In this document: in pieces, positions 4,983 to 23,858 of the stretch
Numbering within the stretch: position 1 is the first letter of the stretch
Layout of the letters: the number at the start of each line of letters is the position of its first letter
IMG/VR virus record: IMGVR_UViG_3300031234_000629
Location: 1-23,892 of that record
From: a virus
Strand: one strand, 5' to 3'
DNA length: 23,892 nt
Translations under genes and position numbers: made by a program
Notes under the pieces: model-generated
The model's input: only the letters and a program-made list of their open reading frames with translations
Databases searched by the model: none
What the model was told of the DNA's origin: nothing

Positions 4983-5347
4983 ACGCCGCTGGGATCGTCA
5001 ACTACTTGTCTGGGCGTGGGTTTCATCTGAGCGTCGATCGCTCGGATCTGCTCGTTTCGCCGAAGATCGCAGACGTCGCCCTGCGGGATCGCGTCATCGC
5101 GCGCAAACCGGACATCCTCGCCTTCCTGCGGGAGCACGGCGGTGAGTGGCCGCCGCAACCCGCGAGCGCGCATCGGTTCGTCCTCTGGAGCGGAGCGAAG
5201 GCGCCGCAACTTGCTGCCTGCGTTGCGTGCGGAGTACCCGTCGAGATGCACGGGGACGATCCGCTCGCCGATGCCCTAATCGTCGACGAGGTCAACGAAG
5301 TCGCCCTCGTAACCGCCGTCGCGATCGTGCGCGGAGTGCTGCATTGA
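4979..5347 (+). CDS. Hypothetical protein with a TubC-like N-terminal segment
   Basis: This 122-aa protein has an N-terminal half (1-50: IVNYLSGRGFHLSVD, then DLLVSP, then RDRVIARKPDILAFLRE) that follows the pattern of the TubC N-terminal docking domain. That small helical/strand module is best known from nonribosomal peptide enzymes but also occurs in phage and plasmid replication-associated proteins. The C-terminal half has one CxxC (ACVACG) and an acidic segment. The start overlaps the helicase stop by 4 bases (ATGA), and the stop overlaps the next gene (TTGA). This fits a tightly coupled replication operon and a possible helicase-partner role. The family call is by pattern only. Confidence 0.7.
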   Translation: MNAAGIVNYLSGRGFHLSVDRSDLLVSPKIADVALRDRVIARKPDILAFLREHGGEWPPQPASAHRFVLWSGAKAPQLAACVACGVPVEMHGDDPLADALIVDEVNEVALVTAVAIVRGVLH

Positions 5348-5562
5348 TCCGCCCTGCAACGATCCGCAAGGCGCACCGTCTACCCGTCGTCCGGGCGCAC
5401 GACGGCACCTTCCGAGTCGGCGGAGACACCGACGTCTACACTGTCTACCGCTCCCATTTTCAGAGCGGATGGGTCTGCAACTGCTTTGCAGCCCGCACCA
5501 ATAGGTGCAGCCACGTCGTCGCAGTCGAACTCGCGACAGAAAGAGAACCAGCTAATGGGTGA
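5344..5562 (+). CDS. SWIM-type zinc finger protein
   Basis: This 72-aa protein starts at TTG 5344, overlapping the previous stop. The SWIM signature CxCx(n)CxH is seen as CNCFAARTNRCSH, preceded by a short beta-rich segment and followed by a helix (VVAVELATE), which is the standard SWIM fold order. SWIM domains bind DNA or protein partners and are common as small proteins in phage early operons. Its stop overlaps the start of the SSB-like gene, so it is translated in line with the helicase and SSB-like protein and probably acts in DNA replication or recombination. A second SWIM protein of similar size lies in element 2 (20203-20451). Confidence 0.75.
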   Translation: MIRPATIRKAHRLPVVRAHDGTFRVGGDTDVYTVYRSHFQSGWVCNCFAARTNRCSHVVAVELATEREPANG

Positions 5563-6528: not shown

Positions 6529-6966
6529 ATGATTTTGGAGAAGGCGACGCGCTTAATCCCGGTCGTGTGCGCGATGTGCGATGAGGTGTTCGCCGCCCGT
6601 AGGTCGACGGCTATCTTCTGCTCGTCACGCTGCCGGACGCGACGGCATCGCCTTGGACTGGCAGAGACGCCGGCCGCGGCACCGATCGCTGCTGTCTTTC
6701 TTGAAGACTTACCGGCCGCGGAGCGCATTAAGCTAATCCTTGGCGATTCAATACGCTGGCGGGCGCTCCACGATCAAGACGACCACGATGTCTTCCCGCA
6801 CATGCTGGAGCGTGGGACGCCGCCGGTCGACGTCGAGGTTTTTATGGCCGTACGGGCCGCGGACGCGGCCTTCGCGGCCACCGCTGACCCCGATCCTGCG
6901 ATCCCCTCACTAATGCGAGCACCTGCTCGAGCTCCGAAACGAAGGTCAACCCGCCATGTTGCGTAG
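6529..6966 (+). CDS. Small zinc-finger protein, first gene of the terminase operon
   Basis: This 145-aa protein has an N-terminal treble-clef-like zinc motif: CAMCDEVF, then FCSSRCRTRRHR (C-x2-C, about 13 residues, C-x3-C). This arrangement is common in small bacterial and phage nucleic-acid-binding proteins. The C-terminal two thirds are acidic and helical (EDLPAAERIKLILGDS, DDHDVFPHMLERG) and end in a basic tail. The frame is open upstream to 6400, but ATG 6529 is chosen because the zinc motif starts just after it and a -10 box sits just before. Its stop overlaps the start of the next small gene by 11 bases. A regulatory or packaging-linked role is possible but unproven. Confidence 0.7.
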   Translation: MILEKATRLIPVVCAMCDEVFAARRSTAIFCSSRCRTRRHRLGLAETPAAAPIAAVFLEDLPAAERIKLILGDSIRWRALHDQDDHDVFPHMLERGTPPVDVEVFMAVRAADAAFAATADPDPAIPSLMRAPARAPKRRSTRHVA

Positions 6967-7099
6967 ACACCTAGCCCAAGACGTGCGGCTGATCGTACAC
7001 CTCCGCAAGGGTGAAGCGATCGGCTCGAGTCTTGCCGACGCGCTAGCCGCCAAAGGCGTCCTTCTCGCTCCAGTCGCTCCCGTGAAGGCAGCGCCGTGA
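6956..7099 (+). CDS. 47-aa hypothetical protein embedded in the terminase operon
   Basis: This short ORF starts at ATG 6956 within the end of the zinc-finger gene, with AAGG about 10 nt upstream, and ends at TGA 7097-7099, overlapping the next gene's GTG start by 4 bases. The product is largely helical (RLIVHLRKGEAIGSSLADAL) with an Ala/Pro/Val-rich end. Overlap with genes on both sides in the same direction is the main evidence that it is translated. No family is recognised. Confidence 0.6.
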   Translation: MLRRHLAQDVRLIVHLRKGEAIGSSLADALAAKGVLLAPVAPVKAAP

Positions 7100-7395
7100 G
7101 CAAACCCGCTGAATTTGGGCGCGACGCCCTTGGACCTGGCTCTGTTCGGGCGATCATCGAGGACGCCGCGATCGGGAAGACCGTTGCGAGCATCTGGTTC
7201 GGGCTTGACCCGGCAGACTGCAAGACGGTGCACAACGGCGAGCGGCTCGTGTTCCGCTTCACCGACGGATCGGCGCTCGAGCTGCAGCTGGGATCGAACC
7301 TGTGGAACCTGCATAGCGATCGCGTACTCGGCAAGACGCTCCCGCGCGATGTCTCTCTGTCGTTCATCGCTCTCTCGCGCAAGAGCAACGGGTAG
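7096..7395 (+). CDS. Family-A conserved small protein, terminase-linked (copy 1)
   Basis: This 99-aa protein starts at GTG 7096 with AAGG at 7-nt spacing. It shares a clear pattern with the 92-aa protein at 18188-18466: SVR, I, A, GKT, SI, VH, ERL, RFTDG, then GSN-W-L, about one third identity over about 75 residues with almost no gaps. The motif spacing suggests a small mostly beta fold. There are no Cys pairs and no membrane segment. Here it lies directly before terS-terL; the second copy lies shortly after an unrelated terminase. I do not know the family. Repeated linkage to terminases suggests a packaging-related job, such as terminase accessory or DNA-end handling, as a hypothesis. Confidence 0.8.
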   Translation: MSKPAEFGRDALGPGSVRAIIEDAAIGKTVASIWFGLDPADCKTVHNGERLVFRFTDGSALELQLGSNLWNLHSDRVLGKTLPRDVSLSFIALSRKSNG

Positions 7396-7407
7396 CGCAG
7401 GCGCACC

Positions 7408-7911
7408 TTGGGCCGCCACTGCACGGTCTGCACGCACCCCGATCACGTCGCGATCGACAAGAAGCTCGCCGGCGGGCACGAGGCCGCCTCTCTTGCGCGC
7501 AAGTATAGCCTCGAGCCGACGTCTGTACGCAGACACAAGGCGTCGCATCTCGTGCGGCCGCGCACGGTCGGTGAGGTCGGGAGCGACGCGGAGTTCGCAG
7601 CATGGCTCGAGCAGCGTAACCTCGAGACGCCCGCCGACGTGCTCGCTTACGCGAAGCATTGCGTCTGGCGCATCGACCGCCTGGCCGAGAAGGCCGAGGC
7701 CGACGGCGACCTGTCGACTGCGGTGCGGGCTATCACGGCGACACTCAAGTCGATGGAAACGCTGTTCGGCAAGGTTACAGGGCTCATCAGCGACAGTCCT
7801 ACGATCGACGCCTCGACGAAGGTCATCGCGGTGCTGAGCAGCCTGTCTGAGCAGCAGCTACGCGCCTTCCTCGCGGGCGGCAAAGACGTGATGGCGCTGA
7901 GGGCCGAATGA
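7408..7911 (+). CDS. terS: Terminase small subunit (element 1)
   Basis: This 167-aa protein starts at TTG 7408 with GCAGG 6 nt upstream. The N-terminus carries a Cys/His site (HCTVCTHPDH) followed by a helix-turn-helix-like segment (AASLARKYSLEPTSVRRHKA). The middle (95-145) is long alpha-helix, as expected for oligomerisation of a small terminase. The position immediately before the large subunit, with a 4-base ATGA overlap, supports the assignment. It would recognise packaging sites on the element's DNA and hand them to TerL. The zinc-like N-terminus fused to the HTH is a less usual feature. Assignment rests on context and architecture. Confidence 0.78.
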   Translation: MGRHCTVCTHPDHVAIDKKLAGGHEAASLARKYSLEPTSVRRHKASHLVRPRTVGEVGSDAEFAAWLEQRNLETPADVLAYAKHCVWRIDRLAEKAEADGDLSTAVRAITATLKSMETLFGKVTGLISDSPTIDASTKVIAVLSSLSEQQLRAFLAGGKDVMALRAE

Positions 7912-9347
7912 TCTTCGCTCCCGAGCATCGCGAGGCGCTCGAGCTGCTGGTGCGGCAGGACCTCGCGCGGCGCCGGCTGATCGACTTCTGCGCGCTGACG
8001 GACCCGACCTACGAGCGTGCGCGTCACCTCGACTTGCTCGCTTCGCATCTCGAGGCGCTCGAACGGCGCGACATTAACAAGCTGATCGTTTGTATGCCGC
8101 CGCGGCACGGCAAGTCGAAGACAGCGTGTCAGGACTTCCCGGCCTGGTATCTCGGCCGCAACGCGAAGAACCAGGTCATCCTCGCGAGCTACGGTGCGGA
8201 GCTCGCCGAGGGACACAGTCGCAAGGTGCGCGAGCTCGTCAGCCACGAGCTGTATCCGTTCAGGAATACGCGCGTTAACGCGAATTCGTCGGCCGTCGAT
8301 CGGTGGGAGACGACATCGGGCGGGATCGTGCGCGCGGCGGGTGTCGGCGGCGCGCTGACCGGCCTCGGCGCAGACCTGTTGGTGATCGACGACGCCGTGA
8401 AGGATGCGGCCGGCGCGGAAAGCGAGACGATCCGCGAGTCGACGTGGGCATGGTATTCGACGGTGGCGCGGACGCGCTTGATGCCGCGCGCTGTTCGGGT
8501 TGTGATCGGAACGCGATGGCACGAGGACGACTTGCTCGGGCGCATTCTCGACTCGCCGGGCGCGAGTGAGTGGACTACGCTGATCTTGCCGGCACTTGCG
8601 GAACCCGGCGATCCGCTCGGGCGCGAACCGGGCGAGGCGCTCTGGCCGGCATGGTATCCGGCGGACAAACTGCCCTCGGTTGCGTCGGGTGAGCTTTCGA
8701 CACGGCAGTTCGTAGCGCTGTATCAGCAGCGGCCGGCGCCCGCGGAAGGCGCGCTCTTCAAGGCCGAGTGGTTCACACACTTTTTCGACGGCGAGCCGCC
8801 GACTCATTGCGTAGCAGGCCAAGAACCGTGGAATGTTCGCCTGCAGGCGATCGACACGGCCGCGAAAACGGGCGTTTCCAACGATTTCAGCGTGATCGCG
8901 ACGGTTCAGACGGACGGCGTGAACTGCTACGTTCTCGACGTCGTTCGCAAGCGCGTCGAGTTTCCCGATCTCGTGCGGCTCGTCGTCGAGCAGGCGCGAA
9001 AACATCGTCCGCACGGCGGCATCTATATCGAGGACTCGTCCGCCGGCACGGCCGTCATCCAAAAGCTGCGCGTCGAGTCGAATCTTCCGGTTATTCCGGT
9101 GAAGGTCGCGGCGCTTTCGAAAGTCGCGCGCGCTGAGGCGCAGACCGCACACTTCGAAGCGGGCAAGATATGGTTCCCGCGACACGCGCCGTGGTATGGC
9201 GACCTCGTCGACGAGATGATTCGCTTCCCATACGGGCGCCACGACGACCAAACCGACGCACTTTGCATGGCCGTCGCGCAGGCGACGATCGCGATTGGCG
9301 CAGCTCGCCGGCGAGCAACAATGCCTAGGCACTGGATGGCGCGATGA
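7908..9347 (+). CDS. terL: Terminase large subunit (element 1)
   Basis: This 479-aa DNA-packaging motor has an ATPase domain with Walker A PPRHGKSK (64-71), Walker B LLVIDD (157-162) and coupling motif GTRW (201-204). An RNase H-like nuclease domain follows, with acidic positions in AIDTAAKTG (D316), YIEDSS (E375/D376) and RHDDQTDAL (D446-D450). The length is normal and all motifs look intact. It starts at ATG 7908, overlapping terS by 4 bases. Its sequence is not close to the second TerL at 16272-17957, which has a different Walker A and no GTRW. No portal gene is recognised after it, which is unusual. Confidence 0.94.
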   Translation: MIFAPEHREALELLVRQDLARRRLIDFCALTDPTYERARHLDLLASHLEALERRDINKLIVCMPPRHGKSKTACQDFPAWYLGRNAKNQVILASYGAELAEGHSRKVRELVSHELYPFRNTRVNANSSAVDRWETTSGGIVRAAGVGGALTGLGADLLVIDDAVKDAAGAESETIRESTWAWYSTVARTRLMPRAVRVVIGTRWHEDDLLGRILDSPGASEWTTLILPALAEPGDPLGREPGEALWPAWYPADKLPSVASGELSTRQFVALYQQRPAPAEGALFKAEWFTHFFDGEPPTHCVAGQEPWNVRLQAIDTAAKTGVSNDFSVIATVQTDGVNCYVLDVVRKRVEFPDLVRLVVEQARKHRPHGGIYIEDSSAGTAVIQKLRVESNLPVIPVKVAALSKVARAEAQTAHFEAGKIWFPRHAPWYGDLVDEMIRFPYGRHDDQTDALCMAVAQATIAIGAARRRATMPRHWMAR

Positions 9348-9366
9348 GCGCCGAGGAGACGAATTC

Positions 9367-10446
9367 GTGACATCAGGACATCCCGACGCGTCGATGGCGC
9401 GCCACAAGCCCGCCGGCCCCGGCGAACCGCCCCCGCGCCGGCCGTCTCCGCCCGATCGCACGACATTCTCCGAAAGGATCGAGCCTGTAATTCAACCGCG
9501 TGCAACTTGGAGCACGGCCGAGCAGCACGTCGGCCGCTGGACGCGCCTTGTCCCCGCGCGGCTTTCGAATCACGGTCTCATTGCGATCGACGCGGCGATC
9601 CCGAACGACTCCACGGGGCTCATGCTCGCGAAGTCGCGCTACCCGTCGTCGTATGTGAGCGTTTCGCTCGGGTCCAACGATCTTCTCGAACTGGTCGTTC
9701 ACGCCGAAACGGGTTACGCCGAGCTCGCGGAGTTCTCGGAACGTATCGGCGCCCCGATCCCAACGGCCGCGAGCTGCTGCGCTGATGGCGAGGGGGTGTC
9801 GCACGTACGGCACTTGATGCGCGTCTCAAACTTTGACTCGCACGTGATCGTCGAAGAGCTTCGGTACGCAGAGCGCAACACGTTCGACGCTTCGCCCGTC
9901 CCCGGATTTCTCAATCTGTCCGTCCGTTTTCGCGGTCTCGCGCTGCTCCCCATCGATCCGACGATTCCGAACGCGCCGCAGGCGCTGCTCGAGTACTTGA
10001 AGCGCTACCGCCAAGAGCTTGCCGCCCGCTCTTGGGAAAGGCTCATCAAAGAGCAGGCGGCAGCGAGCGAAAGGCGCTCAATGCCGTCGGAAGCTCGGCG
10101 GCTTCGTTACGGTGTGCACCTCATGCACCGCGGCACGTATTTGAACTTTCCGGCCGGAACGATCGTCGAAGAGCAAGAGGTCCTCGACGCTATCGCGGCA
10201 GCCGATCCGGACGCGCTCGTGGCGATCGACGCTGATACCAAGCTGCGCGACTTGCGCCCTGGCGAGATTCGCTACAAGACGCGCTTCTTCGGGACTGTTC
10301 CCGGTCTCGGCATGATCAGCGCGGAAGAGGGCAAGGTTATCGAGGGAACGGACCCGTCATACATTGCGCATCTCCGCGCAGCCGGCGCGCAGCTCGAGGT
10401 TTACGGTGGGGAGCCGGCGCGGCAGAAACAGGCGGCGACAGCATGA
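9367..10446 (+). CDS. Unrecognised late protein in the portal position
   Basis: This 359-aa protein starts at GTG 9367, backed by GAGGAG (9353-9358) at 8-nt spacing, 19 bases after terL. The first 40 residues are Pro/Arg-rich and disordered. Residues about 50-215 are a mixed alpha/beta domain (SLGSNDLLELVVHAETGYAE; FLNLSVRFRGLALLP). A helical, charged linker (YLKRYRQELAARSWERLIKE) leads to a second domain at about 245-345 (GVHLMHRGTYLNFPAGTIVE; FFGTVPGLGMISAEEG). I see no portal, protease or HK97-capsid signature and do not recognise a family. The slot after terL would normally hold the portal, so a highly divergent head protein cannot be excluded. Confidence 0.8.
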   Translation: MTSGHPDASMARHKPAGPGEPPPRRPSPPDRTTFSERIEPVIQPRATWSTAEQHVGRWTRLVPARLSNHGLIAIDAAIPNDSTGLMLAKSRYPSSYVSVSLGSNDLLELVVHAETGYAELAEFSERIGAPIPTAASCCADGEGVSHVRHLMRVSNFDSHVIVEELRYAERNTFDASPVPGFLNLSVRFRGLALLPIDPTIPNAPQALLEYLKRYRQELAARSWERLIKEQAAASERRSMPSEARRLRYGVHLMHRGTYLNFPAGTIVEEQEVLDAIAAADPDALVAIDADTKLRDLRPGEIRYKTRFFGTVPGLGMISAEEGKVIEGTDPSYIAHLRAAGAQLEVYGGEPARQKQAATA

Positions 10447-10673
10447 GCCTGCGTAAACGTTTCGAGGAGCGATATGCCGCCGATAAGCGCGCCTCCATGG
10501 ACGCGGACGAAATGACGAAGGCGTTTAGGGAGACGATCCGCGAGACGCGCCGCAAGGCCGACTTCGAGGGCGCCAGGCGAAGCGGCATGGAGATCGTCGC
10601 CGAGCTCGAGTTCGGCGGCAAGCGCTCACCCGGCGAGATCGCCGCGATCGTCGACCTGCGCCTCCTGCAGTAA
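10443..10673 (+). CDS. Small helical hypothetical protein
   Basis: This 76-aa protein overlaps the previous gene by 4 bases (ATGA at 10443). It is highly charged and almost entirely alpha-helical by composition (LRKRFEERYAADKRASMDAD; IRETRRKADFEGARRSGMEI). It has no Cys and no membrane segment. It could be a scaffold-like or oligomerising small late protein, but no family is recognised. It is the last gene before a 185-base gap with a GC-rich hairpin. Confidence 0.65.
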   Translation: MSLRKRFEERYAADKRASMDADEMTKAFRETIRETRRKADFEGARRSGMEIVAELEFGGKRSPGEIAAIVDLRLLQ

Positions 10674-10679
10674 CAACGT

Positions 10680-10698
10680 CCCGCGCCTGGTGCGCGGG
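10680..10698. other. GC-rich hairpin in the intergenic gap
   Basis: CCCGCGC (10680-10686) pairs with GCGCGGG (10692-10698) around CTGGT. It lies a few bases after the 76-aa gene. There is no U-tract, so it is not a classical terminator; it may slow polymerase or protect mRNA ends. The remaining gap to 10858 shows no gene. Confidence 0.4.
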
Positions 10699-10858
10699 TT
10701 CGAGCGGCCCTGAGTGAAGCCGCTTTCGCGCGAGCTCCATCCGGCTTATGCGCGACCGTCTGGGGCTGAGAATGGGGTGCTGCGCCCAGGCGCGCTTCCG
10801 TTTCTTAGCAGCAGCGGCCCATTTCACGGCACAACCTCCTCGAAAGGGACGAACCATC

Positions 10859-11167
10859 ATGGCAAATCCTACTCGCATCGCTATGAAGCGCGGCCTCGAA
10901 GTCTCGCTGCCGGCGGCGAACGTTCTCGTCTTGACCACTTACACTGTGCCGGGCGGTCCGCCGGGCCAGCCGGCCCAATCAAACGGCATACGGGTGCTGA
11001 ATCCGGAGCTCAACACGTACGGCACGCCCCCAGGCTACGTATTTACGTTCCTTGACGCTGGCGCGGTCATTACGGATCCAGTTTTGATCGCTTCGCTCCT
11101 GGCGATCACAAGTGGTCAGACTTCTATCCTGCCCGGGGTTGCGTTGCCCTATTGGGATGCGTTCTAA
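10859..11167 (+). CDS. Hypothetical late protein
   Basis: This 102-aa protein starts at ATG 10859, with AAAGGGA about 9-10 nt upstream. The frame extends to 10748, but that region is Arg/Cys/Ala-rich noise. The sequence is beta-rich with Pro/Gly loops (TTYTVPGGPPGQPAQSNG; GYVFTFLDAGAVITDPVLIA). Such a composition is common in small virion surface or decoration proteins, but nothing specific is recognised. It lies between the terminase genes and the tail chaperone in the late operon. Confidence 0.7.
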   Translation: MANPTRIAMKRGLEVSLPAANVLVLTTYTVPGGPPGQPAQSNGIRVLNPELNTYGTPPGYVFTFLDAGAVITDPVLIASLLAITSGQTSILPGVALPYWDAF

Positions 11168-11169
11168 CG

Positions 11170-11478
11170 ATGGACCCGCTAAAGATTTTCGCCGAGAAGG
11201 ACGCGAATCGCATTCGCAGTACGTCGGCACGGAACTACTTGTGCGCCTTTTCCGTTGCGGTCGGCCAGGTGTTCGCGAAACTCGGCGCGGCCGATGGCGA
11301 AAAGTTTGCTGCGAGCGCGCCGACACCGACCCCCGATGCGGCAGAGCTAGCACGCGCGGCGAGCGAGTATCAGTGCGGGTTCGCGGTCGCGTTCCGTTCT
11401 TCCATGAAGGCCCGCGGCGCGGCAGACGGCGAACTCGCGGCCGCTGCGATCGATGTCGCGACTTTACATCATGGATGA
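11170..11478 (+). CDS. Hypothetical late protein
   Basis: This 102-aa protein starts at ATG 11170, two bases after the previous stop, so translation is probably coupled; no strong ribosome site is seen. It is helical and Ala-rich (LCAFSVAVGQVFAKLGAADG; DAAELARAASEYQCGFAVAF), with a Pro/Thr hinge in the middle. Two helical halves with similar spacing (a Cys/Phe-Ala-Val core in each) suggest a helical hairpin. No family is recognised. The stop overlaps the next gene by 8 bases. Confidence 0.65.
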   Translation: MDPLKIFAEKDANRIRSTSARNYLCAFSVAVGQVFAKLGAADGEKFAASAPTPTPDAAELARAASEYQCGFAVAFRSSMKARGAADGELAAAAIDVATLHHG

Positions 11479-11674
11479 GGAAACAAACGCGACGTCTCCG
11501 ACGTCAGTGCCGCGCCTGCGCATCGATCCCGCCGCGTTACCGTCATGGTCGCTTCGGCGGCTTCCTGTGGGAACGCGCACGCGCCACGAAGACGCCGAAC
11601 GCTGGGTCGGCGACACGCAGCTGCACACGCGTCGGCAATTGGCCGCGCAGGAACGGAACGCTAGTGATGGTTGA
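11471..11674 (+). CDS. Small hypothetical late protein
   Basis: This 67-aa protein starts at ATG 11471 inside the end of the previous gene, with its stop overlapping the next start by 8 bases. It is polar, Thr/Arg/Pro-rich and probably disordered at the N-terminus (DEETNATSPTSVPRLRIDPA), with a Trp-rich middle. Support is mostly positional: it fills the space between two overlapping genes in the same direction. No family is recognised. Confidence 0.5.
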   Translation: MDEETNATSPTSVPRLRIDPAALPSWSLRRLPVGTRTRHEDAERWVGDTQLHTRRQLAAQERNASDG

Positions 11675-12098
11675 ACGGTTTGAGGCTCTCTGGGCCCGCA
11701 TCGTCGCAGACTTTCGGCGCGTCGACGAGATTGGCTTGGCTGCAGTGGCCGATGCCGCGACACGTAGATTCGACGACGCGATCGCGAAGAGCCATCGAGC
11801 CGAGGCAATCGCCGCGAGCGTCTGCGGCATTTGGGCGGCGAACCGAATGACGAGCTGGTCAGGGCTCGACGAGCCGCTACGAGCGTACGCCTCATCGTAC
11901 GTCGACGGTATACGGCGCGGCAGAGCTGACCTGGCGATCGCGAAGGCTGGGCTCGAGGCAATCAATGGCGCTGCCGGCGACGAGATTCAGCGAAAGACAC
12001 GCGCGGCCGCGCGCGTACTGGTTGAGGGCGCTCGCGCGCTGACAGCTTCACTCGGCGGCAAGCCTAACCGCATCGCCACACTTGGCGACGCAGAATAA
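11667..12098 (+). CDS. Hypothetical helical late protein
   Basis: This 143-aa protein starts at ATG 11667; a GTG one codon upstream is equally possible. It is strongly helical (RFEALWARIVADFRRVDEIG; LRAYASSYVDGIRRGRADLA), with a basic C-terminal third and no membrane segment. The frame is open far upstream to 11112, but those residues are Arg-rich shadow sequence of the preceding genes. It ends 44 bases before the tail chaperone. It could be a head-tail connector or tail terminator of unknown type, but no signature supports a specific call. Confidence 0.65.
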   Translation: MVERFEALWARIVADFRRVDEIGLAAVADAATRRFDDAIAKSHRAEAIAASVCGIWAANRMTSWSGLDEPLRAYASSYVDGIRRGRADLAIAKAGLEAINGAAGDEIQRKTRAAARVLVEGARALTASLGGKPNRIATLGDAE

Positions 12099-12142
12099 CC
12101 ACGGGAATTCGCGCCCATGCGGCGCTGAGAGGACGAACCAAG

Positions 12143-12640
12143 TTGCACGTTCGATCGATTGAAGACCCTGAATATCCAAACGCCGAACAGGGCGAAACCG
12201 CTCTCGTAGACGAGCTGGTCGGCAACGAAGAACACCGTTGGGAGGCGCCGGACCGTTCGCGACACTGCACTTTTGGTCGCGCCCGCGGAATGATCTCGCT
12301 CCGGATTGCTCGAGTCCTTGGGCCGATGCAGTCAAACAACCCGGTCCTCGACCTTTACTACAAAGCCGTCGCCGGCATCCGGACCTGGAACGGTCAGGCG
12401 GTCGTCGAGCCGATGATCGATATGCACTTCGAGGCGGCATTCTCTCGGTTTGGGTCGGACGAGAACCTAAACGACTACGTCAATACGTGGCAGATGGCGC
12501 TGTATCCGGATATGGTCGAAGCGCTCAAAGAGATCGCGAAGATGGGCCTCGGACCCGAAGCGGTCGCTCGCGTCGCGGAGAACGCAGGGAAACAAACCTC
12601 AAAAAAATCGCGGACAGCCCGTGGGTCCGGCAAGTCTTAG
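12143..12640 (+). CDS. Tail assembly chaperone, short (G-type) product
   Basis: This 165-aa protein starts at TTG 12143, with GAGAGGA about 9 nt upstream. In siphoviruses two tail assembly chaperones are made from overlapping frames just before the tape measure gene and coat the tape measure during tail building. Here residues 50-155 (YYKAVAGIRTWNGQAVVEPM; NDYVNTWQMALYPDMVEALK) fit the small helical G-type layout. The codons for K154-K155 form a slippery A AAA AAA sequence. Ordinary decoding continues ten more codons of low-complexity text (SRTARGSGKS) and stops. The frameshift product is listed separately. Confidence 0.75.
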   Translation: MHVRSIEDPEYPNAEQGETALVDELVGNEEHRWEAPDRSRHCTFGRARGMISLRIARVLGPMQSNNPVLDLYYKAVAGIRTWNGQAVVEPMIDMHFEAAFSRFGSDENLNDYVNTWQMALYPDMVEALKEIAKMGLGPEAVARVAENAGKQTSKKSRTARGSGKS

Positions 12641-12783
12641 CGCTCACGGGCAGCGGCGTACCTTGGGACGTCGTTACGCAGATGCCGGATGAAATCAGAG
12701 CCGGGTGGTATGTTGCCCTCGGCAACAACAACGCGCCGGCGGACAAGCAATTCGACTGGATCGGCGGACGGTGGCCCGAATGA
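12143..12783 (+). CDS. Tail assembly chaperone, -1 frameshift (GT-type) product
   Basis: Reading 12143-12607 in frame 0 and then re-reading base 12607 in the -1 frame joins the G-type protein to 58 further residues (IADSPWVRQVLALTGSGVPW, then DEIRAGWYVALGNNN, ending DWIGGRWPE), about 213 aa in all. The extension has no start codon of its own and much better protein character than the frame 0 tail. Its stop overlaps the next gene by ATGA. The layout matches the lambda G/GT system: slippery sequence near the end of G, T-part in the -1 frame, tape measure shortly downstream. The GT product is normally the minor species that binds the tape measure. Confidence 0.75.
12601..12651 (+). promoter_or_regulatory. 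Programmed -1 ribosomal frameshift signal
   Basis: The heptamer A AAA AAA occupies 12601-12607 in the correct phase (TCA AAA AAA in frame 0). Nine bases later GCCCGTG (12617-12623) can pair with CACGGGC (12645-12651), giving a 7-bp GC-rich stem at the spacing typical of stimulatory structures. Both elements of a classical frameshift site are therefore present. Confidence 0.75.
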
Positions 12784-13220
12784 TGACCCGTAACTTCCCT
12801 TCGCTCGAAGCCTTCGCGACTTTCCTCGTGGGCGCGAGTGTCGAAGAAGTGATCGCGGATGCGTCGGCGCGCGGTGGCGTCGCGGGGTTTCTCACCAAGG
12901 AAATCAAGGATCGCATTGGCGATCCGGACCGCCTTCCGCCGCCGCTCGCGGAGTCGACACAAGAGCAGCGCGCCAAAGATGGATTCTCCGCGGACCAGAC
13001 TCTCTTGCGCACCGGCGAGCTGCGCGACTCGATTGGCTGGGAGCACATCGGGCGGCGCGAGACCGTCGTCGGGTCGACGGACGAGAAGGCACCTTTCCAC
13101 GAATTTGGGACGAGTCGCATTCCGCGGCGGTCGTTCCTTGCGTCGACGGTAGTCGAGAAGAACGACGAAGCCTTCGCGCTCTACATGAAAATCTTCGAAA
13201 CCAGCTTCCTACCGAGGTAA
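12780..13220 (+). CDS. HK97 gp10 / Mu gpG-like tail completion (virion morphogenesis) protein
   Basis: This 146-aa protein starts at ATG 12780, overlapping the chaperone extension by ATGA; the adjacent ATG at 12783 is also possible. The central segment LLRTGELRDSIGWEHIG, then TVVGSTDEKAPFHEFGTSRI and PRRSFL is the hallmark of the gp10/gpG tail-completion group (TG-L--S, VGS, HEFGT, IP-R-FL). These proteins act at the head-tail or tail-terminator interface of siphoviruses and myoviruses. Its place between the chaperone and the tape measure is unusual, since it normally precedes the tail tube gene. This hints that the late module has been rearranged or shortened. Confidence 0.8.
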   Translation: MMTRNFPSLEAFATFLVGASVEEVIADASARGGVAGFLTKEIKDRIGDPDRLPPPLAESTQEQRAKDGFSADQTLLRTGELRDSIGWEHIGRRETVVGSTDEKAPFHEFGTSRIPRRSFLASTVVEKNDEAFALYMKIFETSFLPR

Positions 13221-13225
13221 GTCAA

Positions 13226-15430
13226 GTGCTCAGTTCGTGGACCGTGGGCGTGAATTTGATCACGCGCTCTAATTTTGGCGTCGTGACGAATCAAATGGCG
13301 CGCCAGTCGACGCTCGCCCAAGCGCGCGTCAACGCGCTGACGAGTTCGACGAATCGAATGGCGACGGTCGCTCGCGCCGGCGTGCAGGTCTTCAATACGC
13401 TCGGGCTTGCCGCGGCTGCAGCTACGGCGATCGGCATCAAGGGTGCCGCGGACCTTCAGGACGCGATGGCTCAGACGGCCGTCGCGATGGGCAAGTCGAC
13501 GGACGAGATCGACCGCCGCTTTACGAAGCTGGCGCTACGAATGAGTGACGCAACGGCCCAGTCCGTCACAAACTCGATGGAGTTGCTGCGCACCCTCGCG
13601 ACGAGCGGCATTAACGATCCTAACCAGATGCGGCAGCTCGCGATGCCGATCGCGCTGTACGCCGATACGCAGTACCTCGGCAAGAACCACGTCGCCTTCA
13701 ATGACTCCGCGGCGCTCGCTGCGAAGATCTCGCACCAGTTCGGGGCGCGAACGGCTGATCAGTTGAAGCCGATTCTCAACACGTTGTTTAAGATCAGCCA
13801 GGACATGCCGGACTCGCTGCAGACTGCCGCGACGCAGCTCGGATACTACGCGGCGACCTATACGGCAGCCGGGGTCTCGGCGACTGAAGTTCTGCAGCTG
13901 CAAGCGACGCTCGATCGCATGGGCTACGGCTCGCGCCAGAGCGGCCGCGGGATGCAGATGGCGCTCCGGTATCTGCAAAACCCCACGAAGAAGATGGGCA
14001 TCGCGCAGGACGAGCTCGGTATCGGTGGGACCGCGTTTCTCGATCACCGTACGGGAACGTTTAACGTCGAAGGCATGATCGCCAAGCTACACTCGGACTA
14101 TGCCCACGCCGTGGCGACGGGGACGGTAGGGGGCCCAGGTGGGTTCAATGCCACGATCGCGCGCGCGTTTCCAGCGAACGCCGTCCAAATTATCAGCGCG
14201 CTCGCGAGCAACGCGGGCGTCTCACAGCGTCAGAATGTACGCAGCACGATGCTACGCGTACCGGATCTCGAGGTTGCTCAGGCGCAGCTACTCAACACGC
14301 TCAACAACCAGACGAAGCGTCTCACGACGAACTTTCAGTCGCTCGCGACAATCCTCGAGAAACCATTCATCGGCCAGATGACGAGCGCTGTCGGAAAGCT
14401 CGCCGATGCGCTTGGAAATGTTACGGATTGGTTCTCCAATCATCCCCGCGATGCGGCTCTTGCAGGCGGCGCGATGGCTGCCTGGGGCGCCTGGAGCGTC
14501 GGCGGACTGTTGCAGAGCAACCTTGGGCACTTCTTTGTCCGTGCGTTCCAGCGTGCCGGTCCGGGGGGCTTCAGCGCCGGCGCGTACGGCCTGGGTGGTG
14601 CCGAGGCAGCCGGTGCAGGCGTTGCCGCGACGGCAGCGGGTGGCGGCGTCCTCGCATTCGTTCGCGGTATCCTGACACTCAGCTCGACACGCGCGCTCCC
14701 GGCGCTGATCGACGACGTCGGTTATCTCGGAATCAAGTCCGTTGGATCGAAGGCCGGCCTCGAGCTGATGGGCGGTGCGCTTGCGCGACTCGGCCTAAAG
14801 ATTATACCGGTCGTTGGCGAGATTTCGCTCTTAGTCGATGCAATCAACCTGTTCCACGACCACGCGCGCGATGCCGGCTATGCGATCGGCTCCGCGGCAC
14901 GGTGGATTACAAACGTCGGTGCCCCCAGCATCGGGAAAGCGTTTAAGGACGCGTTTCGGGCGGCAGCGTCAGCCGGTATTTCCGGGATAGCCGCCGGCAT
15001 TTGGGACTTCATCAATGCGCACAACCCGTTCATCGCGGCGGGCCAAGGGGGGATCGACTTCTTGACGGCCATGCGCGACGGGTTTCGTGGGCTCGATACT
15101 AGTCACGTCGGCGGCGCCCCACTCGGGCTGAACTTGGCGCCTCGCCGTGCCGGGAGTGGCCTTCCTGGTCTAAACTTGCCACCGCCGCACCGAGGCGGCC
15201 CGTGGCGCGAACAGACGCGCCGCGTCGTCACGAACCACTTTCATTACCACGCTGCGGCCGGTCAGGACGACGCGACCGCCCGCCGGCACGCGATGCAAGC
15301 GCATCGGAAGATGGCCGAGCATGTCTCGAAGGTCGTCGCGTCCGCCGGCCGGACGCTTAGCCGGGCGGCCGGGTCAACGATTGCCTCGGCGACGATGTCG
15401 AGCTGGGAAACTGAGGGGAGTCTGGCTTAA
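13226..15430 (+). CDS. Tail tape measure protein
   Basis: This 734-aa protein starts at GTG 13226, with GAGG 8 nt upstream. Residues 1-330 follow the TP901-type core: an N-terminal helical region, a hydrophobic stretch (GVQVFNTLGLAAAAATAIGI), then long helices with MAQTAVAMGKSTDEID, MELLRTLATSGI and QAALSA/TYTAAGVSATE-like repeats. Two further hydrophobic segments occur at about 410-430 and 455-490, as is usual for tape measures that later enter the membrane. By the rule of about 1.5 angstrom per residue it predicts a tail near 110 nm. The length and intact frame argue for recent function, although the next tail gene is broken. Confidence 0.9.
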   Translation: MLSSWTVGVNLITRSNFGVVTNQMARQSTLAQARVNALTSSTNRMATVARAGVQVFNTLGLAAAAATAIGIKGAADLQDAMAQTAVAMGKSTDEIDRRFTKLALRMSDATAQSVTNSMELLRTLATSGINDPNQMRQLAMPIALYADTQYLGKNHVAFNDSAALAAKISHQFGARTADQLKPILNTLFKISQDMPDSLQTAATQLGYYAATYTAAGVSATEVLQLQATLDRMGYGSRQSGRGMQMALRYLQNPTKKMGIAQDELGIGGTAFLDHRTGTFNVEGMIAKLHSDYAHAVATGTVGGPGGFNATIARAFPANAVQIISALASNAGVSQRQNVRSTMLRVPDLEVAQAQLLNTLNNQTKRLTTNFQSLATILEKPFIGQMTSAVGKLADALGNVTDWFSNHPRDAALAGGAMAAWGAWSVGGLLQSNLGHFFVRAFQRAGPGGFSAGAYGLGGAEAAGAGVAATAAGGGVLAFVRGILTLSSTRALPALIDDVGYLGIKSVGSKAGLELMGGALARLGLKIIPVVGEISLLVDAINLFHDHARDAGYAIGSAARWITNVGAPSIGKAFKDAFRAAASAGISGIAAGIWDFINAHNPFIAAGQGGIDFLTAMRDGFRGLDTSHVGGAPLGLNLAPRRAGSGLPGLNLPPPHRGGPWREQTRRVVTNHFHYHAAAGQDDATARRHAMQAHRKMAEHVSKVVASAGRTLSRAAGSTIASATMSSWETEGSLA

Positions 15431-15541
15431 TGGCTGCGCCGACCGCGTTCTCTCGCCGGCGTCTCGCTCTATGCGCTCCCCGGGCATGCCGGAAGCGTAT
15501 TACCACGTCTCGCGATTGCCGCGGTACAACTCTCCCGGTAG
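15430..15541 (+). pseudogene. Decayed remnant of the tail gene after the tape measure
   Basis: The ATG at 15430 overlaps the tape measure stop (TAATG) and begins MAAPTAFS, but the frame then turns into Arg/Cys-rich text. A different frame continues naturally as AGVSLYALPGHAGSVLPRLA, IAAVQLSR and stops at 15539-15541. Joining MAAPTAF to this segment requires a one-base shift near 15451-15455. The gene is therefore frameshifted and truncated. Distal tail proteins often sit here, but the remnant is too short to name. Confidence 0.5.
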
Positions 15542-15930
15542 TCGGGTCGCACGGCCAACAGGATGGGCAGGGCGCTGAGCGTCGCGCGCGATCTCGTCCC
15601 GCTAAGCCGAGGTCCTTAGTCAGAGCGGTGGCTCCCGAAAGAGCTACGGAATCCAGGGCGGGCGCGAAACATTTCGCGTCCGTTCTGGTAGGCAGTGCAC
15701 CTGCGAAGGAGCGCCTATCCCCGAGGAGCTACTGAAACGGCGTCGAGTAATTCGGCCCGTTTCTTACTTCAGGCTGTCATTTGCGGAGAGGCGACGTCGT
15801 CGAACGCTTGCACCGAGCCACACGTTAGGGGACCACGCTCTCGTCGCGCGATGAATTCCGGTCAGGCTTTAGTCTGCCGGGCAGTCCGTCCCGTTGAGCC
15901 GCTCAGGCGGCCCGGGGCAGAGAGGGCTAG
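15542..15930. other. Gene-free junction between element 1 and element 2
   Basis: About 390 bases hold no convincing gene; the open frames are Arg/Ser/Pro-rich and lack ribosome sites. Two structures are visible. CGCGAAA (15663-15669) and TTTCGCG (15672-15678) form a near-perfect palindrome around CA. GAAACGG (15734-15740) and CCGTTTC (15757-15763) form a 7-bp stem followed by TTA. No copy of either tRNA 3' end was found here. The stretch probably contains decayed tail DNA and the left edge of element 2. Confidence 0.5.
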
Positions 15931-16275
15931 ATGCCATACAGGGACCCGGAAAAACAGCGCGCCGCTAACGCGAAGATCAAACGAAAGCGGCGGCAGCGCG
16001 CAAGGGCGGCAGCGATCGCGGGTGTGACGGGTCTGCCCAAAATAGCACGGTGTGACGGCACACCCGCCACGCAGCTCCGGTCGATCAATGACGTCATCGC
16101 CGCGTTCGAGCGAGCCGTCGCGGCGATCGAAGATCCGGCGATCGTGGCGACGGATCCGATCGGGTACGCGCGGCAGTTGACCGCAACGGCGAGCGCCGCC
16201 GGCAAGCTCCTCGCGGACAGCGATCTCGAGCAGCGGATGCTGGAAATCGAACGCAAGCTAGGAGGTCCGGCGTGA
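15931..16275 (+). CDS. Putative terminase small subunit (element 2)
   Basis: This 114-aa protein starts at ATG 15931, with AGAGAGGG just upstream. The N-terminus is very basic (DPEKQRAANAKIKRKRRQRA), as in many DNA-binding small terminase proteins. The rest is helical (SINDVIAAFERAVAAIEDPA; QLTATASAAGKLLADSDLEQ), compatible with oligomerisation. It overlaps the large terminase gene by 4 bases (GTGA), the main basis for the call. It shares no obvious sequence with the TerS of element 1 and lacks its zinc motif. An unrelated terminase-linked protein is possible. Confidence 0.6.
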   Translation: MPYRDPEKQRAANAKIKRKRRQRARAAAIAGVTGLPKIARCDGTPATQLRSINDVIAAFERAVAAIEDPAIVATDPIGYARQLTATASAAGKLLADSDLEQRMLEIERKLGGPA

Positions 16276-17957
16276 GTCGTGACGCACTGCGCGCGCGCCT
16301 GCAACGCGCCGAGTCGGCCATCGCGACGGCGTATCGGTCGTGTTCGGCATGCGACGAATGGCCGGCGGCGACGGCGTCACTGATCGACGGAGACAGCGCG
16401 CAGAGCATGCTAGGGCCGAACCCGTGGCCCGCCGCCGGCGGTGCCTGTCCGACCTGCGGCCGCCGACCATCGTGGGCGCTGACGGTCACGGTCGTCGACT
16501 CGATCGCGGAGGCGGACGTCGTGCGTTCGGCATCCCGGCCCGACGAACCGCACATCGCGGTGACGCGCCACCAGGCCGACTTCTTGCGGTGCGAATCGAA
16601 GACCGCGGTCTTCATCGGTGGCCTGGGCGCCGGTAAGTCGGTCGCCGCTGCGCTCTGGCTGCTGCTTCGCCTCGTTCGCTACCCGCGCGCACGGCACTAC
16701 GTCATCGGGACCACGTTCGCGATGCTGAAGGCCGGCACGCATATCACCCTGCGCGGGCTGCTTGACGATCTCGGGTGGTCCTATACCTACAATCGCTCGA
16801 CTCTCACGATCGCGATCGAGAGCGGGCCAGCCCGTGGCGCTGAGGTCCTGTTCTGGAGTTCGGAAACGTTCACCACGACGAAGGGCCTCGAGGTTGACAG
16901 CTGCGTGGTCGAGGAGCTGGCCGAGTGGCAGAGCGCGGAGAGCGCGTTCGCCTACATCAGCGGCCGGCTGCGTCAATCGCCGCCCGCCTCGCGCCATCAT
17001 CCGGATATCGAGCCTCGGCTCCGGGTCGCATCGAACCCCCCACAGTCGCTTTCTCACTTCGTTTACGAGCGGTTCATTGCGCCGCCCGACGACGCCGAGG
17101 CCGCCAAGGCTCGGCCGACGGTCTTCCTAACCCGCACGCTCGACAATCCCCTGATCCCGCAGCGCGACGAGTACGTCGCCATGCTGCGAGCGATCATGAG
17201 CCCATCCGTATTCCGCTCCCAAGTGCTCGGCGAGTTCGTCGAGATCGGCGCGATGCGGGTCTACGAACAGTTCACGCACCGCCTACACGTGCGGGACAAG
17301 GTCGAAGGAATCGGCGCCGTTCGGTACGATCCGACAAAGCCGCTCGCGGTCGGCCTCGACTTCGGCTCGCGTATGGGCGTCGCGATCATGATGCAGGTTC
17401 ATCGGCTGACGGCCGCCGTCAAAGGGCTACAATCTGTCGTCGTCTTTGTCGTCGACGAGATCGCGGTCGAGTCTTCTTACACTCAGAAGATCCTCGATGC
17501 GTTCGCCGATCGATATCGGGGCAGTCAGCAGCCCGCGAGCGTGTACTGGTATGGAGACGCGACCGGCGAACGTGCCGGCAGCACTGGCCCCGCTGACTGG
17601 GAAATCGTCCGCCGCTTTCTGAGCGCCCGCGGCTACGCAGGCGAAGTCAAGAAGGACTCGACCAACCCCCTCAAAGTCGATCGCGTCGCCGCGATGAACC
17701 ACAAGCTCTTGGACGCGGACGGGAACGTCGGCCTCGTCGTCGCGCCGCATTGCAAGACGCTCATCCGCGACCTTGCGACCGTGAAATGGAAGGACGTCGG
17801 CACGGGGCGGATCATCGACCACGGGAAGGCCGGCGAGGCCATCCTCAGCCACGCGTCCGACGGCGCCGGCTACTTCGTCGCGTACGAGTTCGGCGTGATG
17901 CCTCGCGCCCGCGGTGTCGTGCACGATCACCCGTTTGGAAGATGGAGGGAACGATGA
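16272..17957 (+). CDS. terL: Terminase large subunit with N-terminal zinc-binding extension (element 2)
   Basis: This 561-aa protein starts at GTG 16272 after AGGAGG at 6-nt spacing. The motor domain has Walker A GGLGAGKS (116-123), Walker B CVVEE (211-215) and RVASNPP (251-257), which fits motif III. The RNase H-like nuclease has acidic residues in GLDFGSRMG (D363), YGDATGE (D429) and HASDGAGY (D530). Before the motor there is a 95-residue extension with two Cys pairs (C24/C27 in CSACDEW and C59/C62 in CPTCGRR), probably one zinc knuckle. This extension is not usual in TerL and might replace a function of the small subunit. It belongs to a different lineage from the TerL of element 1. Confidence 0.92.
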   Translation: MSRDALRARLQRAESAIATAYRSCSACDEWPAATASLIDGDSAQSMLGPNPWPAAGGACPTCGRRPSWALTVTVVDSIAEADVVRSASRPDEPHIAVTRHQADFLRCESKTAVFIGGLGAGKSVAAALWLLLRLVRYPRARHYVIGTTFAMLKAGTHITLRGLLDDLGWSYTYNRSTLTIAIESGPARGAEVLFWSSETFTTTKGLEVDSCVVEELAEWQSAESAFAYISGRLRQSPPASRHHPDIEPRLRVASNPPQSLSHFVYERFIAPPDDAEAAKARPTVFLTRTLDNPLIPQRDEYVAMLRAIMSPSVFRSQVLGEFVEIGAMRVYEQFTHRLHVRDKVEGIGAVRYDPTKPLAVGLDFGSRMGVAIMMQVHRLTAAVKGLQSVVVFVVDEIAVESSYTQKILDAFADRYRGSQQPASVYWYGDATGERAGSTGPADWEIVRRFLSARGYAGEVKKDSTNPLKVDRVAAMNHKLLDADGNVGLVVAPHCKTLIRDLATVKWKDVGTGRIIDHGKAGEAILSHASDGAGYFVAYEFGVMPRARGVVHDHPFGRWRER

Positions 17958-18148
17958 ACGACTGCGAAGCGAAGGGCGAGGTCGCTCGCTGTGGTGCTTG
18001 CGGCGTGGTAATCAATCTGCCGGAGATCCGTGCCCACTTCGCCGATCGGCACCCGTTCGCGCCTTTGTCGTGGTCGTCAATCTCGCGGTCGCCAGTGCGA
18101 TATCAGGCGCCACCAAAACCGCGTCGGCGCAGGCTCATCAGCCCGTAA
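17954..18148 (+). CDS. Small C2H2-like zinc finger protein
   Basis: This 64-aa protein starts at ATG 17954, overlapping terL by ATGA, with GGAGGGA close upstream. The motif RCGACGVVINLPEIRAHFAD followed by RHPF has C-x2-C, about ten residues, then H-x4-H, a C2H2-type finger. The C-terminus is Ser/Pro/Arg-rich and basic. The finger suggests nucleic acid binding. It sits between terL and the family-A gene, echoing element 1, where a zinc-finger gene also lies near family A and the terminase. Confidence 0.7.
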   Translation: MNDCEAKGEVARCGACGVVINLPEIRAHFADRHPFAPLSWSSISRSPVRYQAPPKPRRRRLISP

Positions 18149-18187
18149 GCCTAACATAATAACTAAAGACTTAAGGAGCACGAAGCA

Positions 18188-18466
18188 ATGGAAACAGGGA
18201 CAAAGGACAGCCCCGGTTTAGAGTCGGTGCGCGAGCAGATCAAGTCCGCTACCGTCGGTAAGACGATCGAGTCAATCGAGCTGGTCGACAATCCGTCGAC
18301 AGATCCGCTCGTACACTCGGATGAGCGACTTACGCTTCGGTTCACCGACGGCACGGACTTCTGCATGGAAATCGGATCGAACTGCTGGGATCTCGTCGCG
18401 GGCGTTCCGGGACTTGATCCGCGCCGGCTGCGGCTGAATTTCCAGCCGGTCGCGGCGCGCGACTGA
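18188..18466 (+). CDS. Family-A conserved small protein, terminase-linked (copy 2)
   Basis: This 92-aa homologue of the protein at 7096-7395 starts at ATG 18188 with AAGGAG at 9-nt spacing, after a 39-base AT-rich gap that may hold a promoter (CATAAT). Shared positions include SVR, GKTI, ESI, VH, ERL, RFTDG and IGSN-W-L. The least similar parts are the first 12 and last 20 residues. It ends 8 bases before the convergent leftward operon. The copies differ enough that they are not a recent duplication; each probably arrived with its own element. Confidence 0.8.
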   Translation: METGTKDSPGLESVREQIKSATVGKTIESIELVDNPSTDPLVHSDERLTLRFTDGTDFCMEIGSNCWDLVAGVPGLDPRRLRLNFQPVAARD

Positions 18467-19994: not shown

Positions 19995-20206
19995 GACGCG
20001 CTCGTCTTCTCGGCCTGCTGCGCCGCGTAGCGCGCGGCCGAGGCTGCTCTCTTGTATCCGCCGTCGATGCGGAGTAGCTCGTTGCCGGGGCACACGTTCT
20101 CGTTGACGATTGGGCCGGTGATACGGTAAAGCGGGTAGCCCGAGCGCGACTTCATCGACGTGGGGGTGATCGTGTGGCCTCGGTAGGTGAAGGGCTCGGT
20201 CTTCAT
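19991..20206 (-). CDS. Small hypothetical early protein
   Basis: This 71-aa protein starts at ATG 20206; earlier residues in the frame are an Arg/Gly-rich shadow. The N-terminal part is beta-like (EPFTYRGHTITPTSMKSRSG; YPLYRITGPIVNENV) and the C-terminal part is a helix (GYKRAASAARYAAQQAEKTS). It overlaps both neighbours by 4 bases. I do not recognise the family. Confidence 0.6.
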   Translation of the reverse strand: MKTEPFTYRGHTITPTSMKSRSGYPLYRITGPIVNENVCPGNELLRIDGGYKRAASAARYAAQQAEKTSAS

Positions 20207-20451
20207 GCCGCCACCATCCGATCGGCGACGACGCGGAGATAGGCGGCCGCCGCGTGCCAGCACGCGTTTCCGAATTGGCCGGCCCTGCAGTCACACGCGA
20301 TCGTGTCGAGCGACAAAACGTAGGCGGTGTAACGGGCGCCGGCGCGGCCGGTGACCGTGTAGCGGCCGTCGCCGCGCGGCGTCGCGGCACTGGCGCCGCC
20401 GTTGACCTTGGCTGCTTCGAGCCGACTCTCAAGCTTCTCTCGCGTCGTCAT
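20203..20451 (-). CDS. SWIM-type zinc finger protein (element 2)
   Basis: This 82-aa protein starts at ATG 20451 immediately after the stop of the preceding gene (TAGATG), with AGAGG at 8-nt spacing. The SWIM signature is CDCRAGQFGNACWH (C-x-C, eight residues, C-x-H) and is preceded by a beta hairpin (GRYTVTGRAGARYTAYVLSL). It continues as helix AAAAYLRVVADR. It resembles the element 1 SWIM protein in layout but with little identity outside the metal ligands. SWIM modules bind DNA or act in recombination complexes. Confidence 0.75.
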   Translation of the reverse strand: MTTREKLESRLEAAKVNGGASAATPRGDGRYTVTGRAGARYTAYVLSLDTIACDCRAGQFGNACWHAAAAYLRVVADRMVAA

Positions 20452-21720: not shown

Positions 21721-22458
21721 ATGCAAGTAAACGCGTGGTGTCCGTCGCCGGAGACTTTGCGGACGATGTCACCAGCCGACATTGGCCGCCGCGTACTCCC
21801 GTCGCTTCGGCAGTATCACGAACGCGGTTTTGCGCCGCGCGATTTAGCTCGGGGGTTCGGCGAGCAATATGGGCAGTTTCTTTCCCGCGAGATGATGTCG
21901 CTCTACATGGAGGGCCTTTGGTGGCTGATGCGTCAGGGCCTTCTCGTTGAGGATCCAACGCAGATGGTAGGCGCCACTTGGTATCGGCTGTCGCGCGATG
22001 GCCTGGCGTTTATCGCGACGTCGCGCACTCCGACGTCGATGGCCGTCGATGCCCCGGTCAGAACCTTGTTGCACCCGCGCATTCTCGCTAGTGCGGTTCC
22101 GATCTACGAACGTGACGCCGACTCGCACGTCGAAGCCGTTGCTGTCGCCTTCATCCAGGTCGAGACGATGACGCGCGAGCGAATAAAGGCGGTTCGAGGC
22201 TCGCCCTCGTCAGAGTCGGGAATCAAGCTCTTTTCCGAGGCTTTCAATCCACCGGACGGCGTCTTGCTGCTGCCTGGCATTGATTCTGGGGAGGCGCACG
22301 GGTTGCGCAATCTGTTCGCCGGCGCGTATGGAGCCCTGCGAAACCCGCACGCTCACGGCTTCGTCCGATTCGAAAGTGATGAGGAGGTCTTGAGGCTGCT
22401 CGTGGTAGCGAGCCAGCTTCTTACGATGCTAGAAAGGCTGCCGCGCGCCGTCGCCTGA
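21721..22458 (+). CDS. HEPN-type protein of the Hypoth_Ymh (TIGR02391-like) group
   Basis: This 245-aa protein starts at ATG 21721; no strong ribosome site is seen. Residues 1-105 form a winged-helix-like region (ADIGRRVLPSLRQYHERGFA; LVEDPTQMVGATWYRLSRDG). The C-terminal domain (115-240) has the Ymh layout: a long helix with VEAVAVAFIQVETMTRERI, then GLRNLFAGAYGALRNPHAHG and VVASQLLTMLERL. The segment RNPHAH (R207-H212) fits the HEPN nuclease motif R-x4-6-H with Asn after Arg. HEPN domains are metal-independent RNases common in toxin-antitoxin and abortive-infection systems. Placement beside the integrase as cargo suits a defence role. The family call is strong by pattern; activity is inferred. 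Confidence 0.75.
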   Translation: MQVNAWCPSPETLRTMSPADIGRRVLPSLRQYHERGFAPRDLARGFGEQYGQFLSREMMSLYMEGLWWLMRQGLLVEDPTQMVGATWYRLSRDGLAFIATSRTPTSMAVDAPVRTLLHPRILASAVPIYERDADSHVEAVAVAFIQVETMTRERIKAVRGSPSSESGIKLFSEAFNPPDGVLLLPGIDSGEAHGLRNLFAGAYGALRNPHAHGFVRFESDEEVLRLLVVASQLLTMLERLPRAVA

Positions 22459-23749: not shown

Positions 23750-23821
23750 GCGCCTTTAGCTCAATGGTAGAGCATCGGACTTTTAATCCGCTGGTTCCGG
23801 GTTCGAGTCCCGGAGGGCGCA
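23750..23821 (+). tRNA. tRNA-Lys (anticodon TTT)
   Basis: The acceptor stem GCGCCTT (23750-23756) pairs with AGGGCGC (23814-23820), including one G-T pair, and the discriminator is A23821. The D-stem is GCTC/GAGC and the anticodon loop is CTTTTAA with TTT at 23782-23784. The anticodon stem has one T/C mismatch at its outer pair. The T-arm CCGGG-TTCGAGT-CCCGG is canonical. CCA is not encoded. The gene is intact and forms the right host border. Confidence 0.96.
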
Positions 23822-23858
23822 CTTCCCAACTCGTGCCGGGCCTGACGACGGGAGGGCC

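Follow-up and report, generated by a model that had tools for sequence, protein, structure and literature searches.

A small protein family beside two unrelated phage terminases is probably a mobile accessory module rather than a terminase cofactor

The described systems closest to the small proteins considered here include two kinds. The first consists of genes adjoining that of the large terminase subunit (TerL) of phages, namely those for small terminase subunits (TerS) and terminase-adjacent accessory genes such as those encoding HNH endonucleases. The second comprises HEPN ribonuclease (RNase) toxins, including HepT and RnlA/LsoA; the Rx4-6H motif of HEPN domains has been placed at the end of helix 3 (PMC3710099). 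Here, we describe family A, a family of small proteins encoded twice (A1 and A2) in the IMG/VR virus record IMGVR_UViG_3300031234_000629, the whole of which (23,892 bp) was analyzed and is referred to as the window. A sequence-only reading of this DNA had proposed that family A, standing beside a terminase each time, is a good candidate for a new terminase cofactor or packaging regulator. We consider it likely that family A is instead a mobile accessory gene, because its relatives, which are also found on plasmids and as one terminus of longer bacterial proteins that may cut RNA, point to a travelling accessory, perhaps with a counter-defense role, more than to a component of the packaging machinery.

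A1 and A2 (Table 1) are true homologues, sharing 28 of 64 residues in a gapless alignment (44% over 64 aa; BLASTP E value of 7e-18), with a Smith–Waterman score of 133, whereas 2,000 shuffles reach 55 at most. Every motif noticed in the sequence-only reading aligns, in matching order, and the window holds two exact matches to FTDG[ST]-x-[hydrophobic]-x-[hydrophobic]-x-[hydrophobic]-GSN, whereas 100 shuffles hold none. The terminases beside them are unrelated, as had been claimed: TerL1 and TerL2 have no significant BLASTP similarity to each other and belong to separate families (phrog_38 and phrog_2). A1 lies just before terS1–terL1, with a 12-nt gap to terS1, and its start codon overlaps the stop codon of the preceding 47-aa open reading frame (ORF) by 4 nt (GTGA); terS1 begins with TTG at 7408 and overlaps terL1 by 4 nt. 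A2 follows terL2 with a single small ORF in between, has an AAGGAG ribosome-binding site ahead of its ATG, and is itself followed by convergent genes. This arrangement suggests that both copies would be co-expressed with the packaging genes. Compared with its orthologue on viral contig L003, A1 has a non-synonymous divergence (dN) of 0.23 and a synonymous divergence (dS) of 0.55; its reading frame is therefore under purifying selection, as that of a real gene would be. Constraint on A1 is weaker than on terS1 (dN 0.19, dS 0.58) and terL1 (dN 0.13, dS 0.70), and A1 evolves faster than the latter. A duplication of A1 into A2 within the contig is not favored, because A1 groups with the L003 copy in the tree (support 93/88).

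Motif scans of 2.9 million viral contigs, in which a hand-made DNA pattern for FTDG[ST]x7GSN worked and automatically chosen peptide patterns returned L003 only or nothing, yielded two further copies, L003 and L007. L003 carries family A, terS and terL followed by the same downstream genes as the A1 locus, with 3 nt between family A and terS. L007 has one ORF between family A and terS, with a primase and an integrase adjacent, and keeps the order of family A before terS–terL although its TerS is only 32% identical (TerL 55%). Scans with variant patterns (F[AS]DG, AGY serine) added no convincing viral homologue, and more distant relatives may therefore have escaped detection. A match in mycobacteriophage D29 (E value of 0.9) was dropped, being weak and spanning two genes. 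A search with TerL2 gave no close relatives among the viral contigs. A fifth phage copy, L134, came from a genome scan and belongs to the metagenome-assembled genome (MAG) bacterium RI_361, for which we infer a planctomycete origin, since its genome turned up in the phylum samples that also contain a named planctomycete. L134 is a canonical prophage, with an integrase, terS, a TerL of a third family (phrog_9; TerL_ATPase/TerL_nuclease), family A, a portal (phrog_12), a head protease (phrog_80) and a major head protein (phrog_10), in which family A sits between TerL and the portal.

All five phage copies therefore lie within two genes of terS or terL, across three TerL families. This placement is more orderly than expected of a randomly placed accessory gene, and is the main argument for a terminase-linked packaging factor that would modulate the terminase (in termination, in the choice of DNA ends, or by inhibition before procapsids are ready) in a few carriers. 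Such a factor would also fit the tight coupling of A1, terS1 and terL1, the even shorter gap in L003, and the gene order kept down to the TerS of L007. However, A1 and A2 were picked for their flanking terminases, and A1, A2, L003 and L007 form one clade (99/98) apart from the other 19 homologues, so that only L134 tests terminase proximity independently. Family A is absent from all 79 other viral contigs with a TerL1-type terminase, 48 of which extend more than 1.5 kb beyond terL in both directions. In a collection of 50,697 phage records, relatives of TerL1 and TerL2 occur in 2,372 and 816, respectively, and the A2, plasmid, L134 and long-protein forms of family A (see below) found no significant match there. 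Since both TerL families abound, and operate in thousands of phages, without a significant family A match, family A is dispensable to them and not a required cofactor. A general cofactor role is thus excluded within the sensitivity of these sequence searches, and a phage-specific packaging role is possible; we judge the packaging factor as a whole improbable. Nor is family A recognized as a small terminase subunit: no PHROG matches A1, A2 or the L134 copy, and a separate terS is already encoded in the first system (in the window and in L003) and in the third (L134).

Outside phages, the best matches are solo genes of ~97 aa on Escherichia coli and Pantoea plasmids. A survey of 5,426 complete E. 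coli genomes located it on seven plasmids and on no chromosome, and the annotated surroundings of three plasmid copies hold no terminase. Scanning 84,980 species genomes for the motif gave 28 stretches, 17 of which, the L134 prophage included, match the family profile at 46–85 bits, the rest being chance; the contigs of these 17 span several phyla and include one archaeon. Solo copies are found on five other bacterial contigs (L010, L018, L027, L036 and L037), although those of L010 and L018 are only ~3.2 kb long and barely show their surroundings. In nine further cases (L013, L014, L016, L017, L020, L021, L031, L032 and L033), family A is the C-terminal module of a protein of ~380–400 aa; L029, a shorter reading frame whose upstream part resembles this protein, is a probable tenth fusion. 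In L032, a phage-type integrase lies directly beside the long protein. The tree thus holds 23 distinct homologues (5 in phage packaging regions, 3 on plasmids, 5 other solo copies and 10 fusions), 18 of which lack a recognized terminase neighborhood. The idea that family A tracks packaging genes therefore holds for the phage copies but not for the family, most of which lies outside any recognized terminase neighborhood. Likewise, its independence of terminase type extends to L134 with its third TerL family, L003 and L007 being of the same type as A1, without amounting to general tracking of, or co-occurrence across, terminase families. Genome samples from four phyla (with overlapping planctomycete samples) gave no match beyond the known ones, so the domain appears rare and patchy.

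This patchy, mobile distribution, together with the varying position of the phage copies (before terS, after terL, or between TerL and portal), would also fit a phage and plasmid moron with another host-directed role, such as excluding superinfecting phages or inhibiting a host enzyme, for which the late operon is a tolerant insertion site and which has nothing to do with the long proteins. A promoter of their own is common among phage morons, but A1 sits within an operon, and a moron of this kind leaves the recurrence of the domain at the C terminus of a conserved long protein unexplained; we therefore regard it as rather unlikely. The surroundings of the solo copies hint at a further alternative, in which solo family A is one half of a split defense or toxin–antitoxin system and works with a neighboring gene: the plasmid copies lie near the type I toxin gene dqlB, in L005 also near an Abi-family gene, and the L027 copy has a NB-ARC-domain neighbor. 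No neighbor is common to the plasmid, phage and chromosomal-contig copies, and PADLOC matches neither family A nor the long proteins apart from one weak hit (E value of 0.024), leaving this alternative a slim chance. A small head or head–tail structural protein (for decoration or completion) would suit the position of the L134 copy within a head module, but is extremely improbable, given that the domain occurs on conjugative plasmids and within a non-structural protein and that fold searches gave no structural match.

The core motif of family A is GKT[IV]..[IV]...H..E....FTDG[ST]......GSN. In an alignment of 20 sequences, G24, K25, H43, F52, T53, D54, G55, G63, S64 and N65 are invariant and E46 is nearly so. 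The AlphaFold2 model of A2 has a predicted local distance difference test (pLDDT) score of 86, and the predicted fold consists of a helix (11–22), a three-strand sheet (27–35, 44–52 and 57–61) and a second helix (67–72). Fold searches with this model found no significant match among solved or viral structures. COMMD-like and enolase N-terminal domains reach a Z score of only about 3, which we do not take as evidence of relatedness, and a match to designed WD40 propellers (Tako8/Ika8) covers ~27 residues around the ..F.DG turn and was judged convergent. None of Pfam, PHROG, NCBIfam and PADLOC lists the domain, and we found no report of family A in the literature.

Likewise undescribed is the ~380–400 aa protein that ends in family A in scattered bacteria and an archaeon. 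Nine of these long proteins align with invariant residues along their whole length. The model of L031 (pLDDT 81) has an alpha/beta part (~1–120), a helical part (~121–287) and the family A domain (~290–383). Its invariant Arg230 lies near the end of a helix (213–233), with a His 4–5 residues further on, in the loop that leads to the following helix; this is the place described for the Rx4-6H motif of HEPN domains. In view of this helical fold and R..H motif, the middle domain is likely, though not proven, to be a HEPN domain, and structure comparison lists HepT (Z score of 5.5), LsoA (5.2), the HEPN protein of HEPN-MNT (4.8) and RnlA (4.4). Several observations weigh against this assignment. 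The HEPN matches are weak, with Z scores below 6.5 and fumarases on top (5.5–6.4), and Foldseek gave no significant match for the long protein. The spacing is R-x3-H (R+4) rather than R-x4-6-H in six of the nine long proteins, the other three having R-x4-H (R+5). Finally, the long proteins tested match no Pfam HEPN domain, nor any other Pfam family save DUF7448 below threshold.

How might a solo copy of this module serve a mobile element? We propose that family A represents, in stand-alone form, a rare domain that moves horizontally and that phages and plasmids would carry as an accessory gene. The phage copies, which sit within the packaging operon or next to it, would be expressed late along with the terminase but would not belong to the motor. 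The solo domain could then bind a HEPN-type protein, or a ligand or partner recognized by the C-terminal module of that protein, and thereby keep a putative RNase effector off, acting as an antitoxin or decoy. We propose this antagonism because mobile elements carry solo copies of a domain found in a putative toxin or defense protein. It is drawn by analogy, and it counts against it that no genome was found to hold solo family A and a long protein as a pair; we regard antagonism by the solo form of a HEPN-type protein with the same module as doubtful. The combined reading of a mobile accessory domain that antagonizes a HEPN-type protein is put forward tentatively, at a little short of an even chance. 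More boldly, the long proteins could form a new HEPN-type defense family with a C-terminal sensor or regulatory domain, the lone domain being carried by phages and plasmids as a dominant decoy or antitoxin, repeatedly in the packaging operon, to be made when late products would trigger the defense; this we think unlikely.

The window as a whole resembles a truncated prophage joined to a second element, because only ~500 bp separate the end of the tape measure gene (15430) from the second terS-like/terL operon (15931), unlike in L003, which has further tail genes instead. TerL, neck and tape measure genes are clear in the A1 phage lineage. Between TerL and the neck protein (9295–12705 in the window and 2313–5208 in L003), Pfam and PHROGs recognize no portal, head protease or major capsid protein. 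Either the head genes are very diverged (a protein of 351–383 aa being a candidate) or the element has no head of its own. The second element carries its own integrase (22486–23655). A tRNA-Phe (564–638) adjoins integrase 1 and a tRNA-Lys (23750–23822) adjoins integrase 2. No 14-nt repeat of either tRNA region occurs elsewhere in the window, so the attachment (att) partners lie outside it or have been lost. A protein of the Hypoth_Ymh family (PF09509, E value of 1.2e-13; 21721–22458) also adjoins integrase 2. The second element further encodes a SWIM zinc-finger protein (20203–20451, minus strand; Pfam E value of 1.2e-6), and a frame in the first element (5146–5562, plus strand) encodes a protein judged by eye to have a similar C-x-C ... 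C-x-H pattern.

Table 1. Family A genes and terminase operon features of the window
Feature	Coordinates	Strand	Basis or remarks
47-aa ORF, translationally coupled to A1	6956..7099	+	Sequence and translation
A1 (family A copy 1)	7096..7395	+	99 aa, GTG start
terS1, small terminase subunit	7408..7911	+	Assigned by location and by conservation (L003, 74%; L007, 32%); no match in Pfam or PHROG
terL1, large terminase subunit 1	7908..9347	+	Terminase_6N/6C, phrog_38 (E 2e-109)
Putative small terminase 2, 114-aa ORF	15931..16275	+	Assigned by location alone; overlaps terL2 by 4 nt; no family match
terL2, large terminase subunit 2	16272..17957	+	Terminase_3, phrog_2 (E 2.5e-27)
64-aa ORF between terL2 and A2	17954..18148	+	C-x2-C ... 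H-x4-H pattern
A2 (family A copy 2)	18188..18466	+	92 aa, ATG start, AAGGAG upstream

Family A connects the late operons of phages with conjugative plasmids of enterobacteria and with a widespread family of HEPN-like proteins. Should solo family A counteract the long proteins, the two would represent a new toxin or defense family plus its mobile antagonist; should it be no more than a moron, it would illustrate well that terminase proximity is weak evidence for a packaging function.

Compared with known systems, family A resembles terminase small subunits and terminase-adjacent accessory genes in adjoining TerL, and differs from them in standing beside a separate terS, in lacking HNH or helix-turn-helix features, and in occurring outside phages as well. 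DUF7448 (PF24240) is a small domain of unknown function, mentioned in no paper that we found, whose first ~35 profile positions weakly match the GK..I...FTDG stretch of A2 (13.7 bits) and of one long protein (14 bits), with E values of 0.06–0.08 and no match to A1. As these scores fall below the Pfam gathering cut-off of 27 bits, family A is not a DUF7448 member by Pfam's rule. The HEPN RNase toxins resemble the middle domain of the long proteins in helical arrangement and in an R..H motif at a helix end; the long proteins are set apart by their weak structural scores, their mostly R-x3-H spacing and a different C-terminal module, and solo family A, unlike these toxins, has no HEPN domain. Our working analogy for the solo form is Dmd of phage T4 (PDB 5hy3, listed in the structure comparison), a small phage protein that blocks the HEPN-domain RNase toxin RnlA/LsoA; no sequence or fold link between Dmd and family A was looked for or found, and a comparable binding by family A is conjecture. 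Set against these systems, family A probably adds another to the small accessory proteins of mobile elements, attached to what is probably a known class, HEPN.

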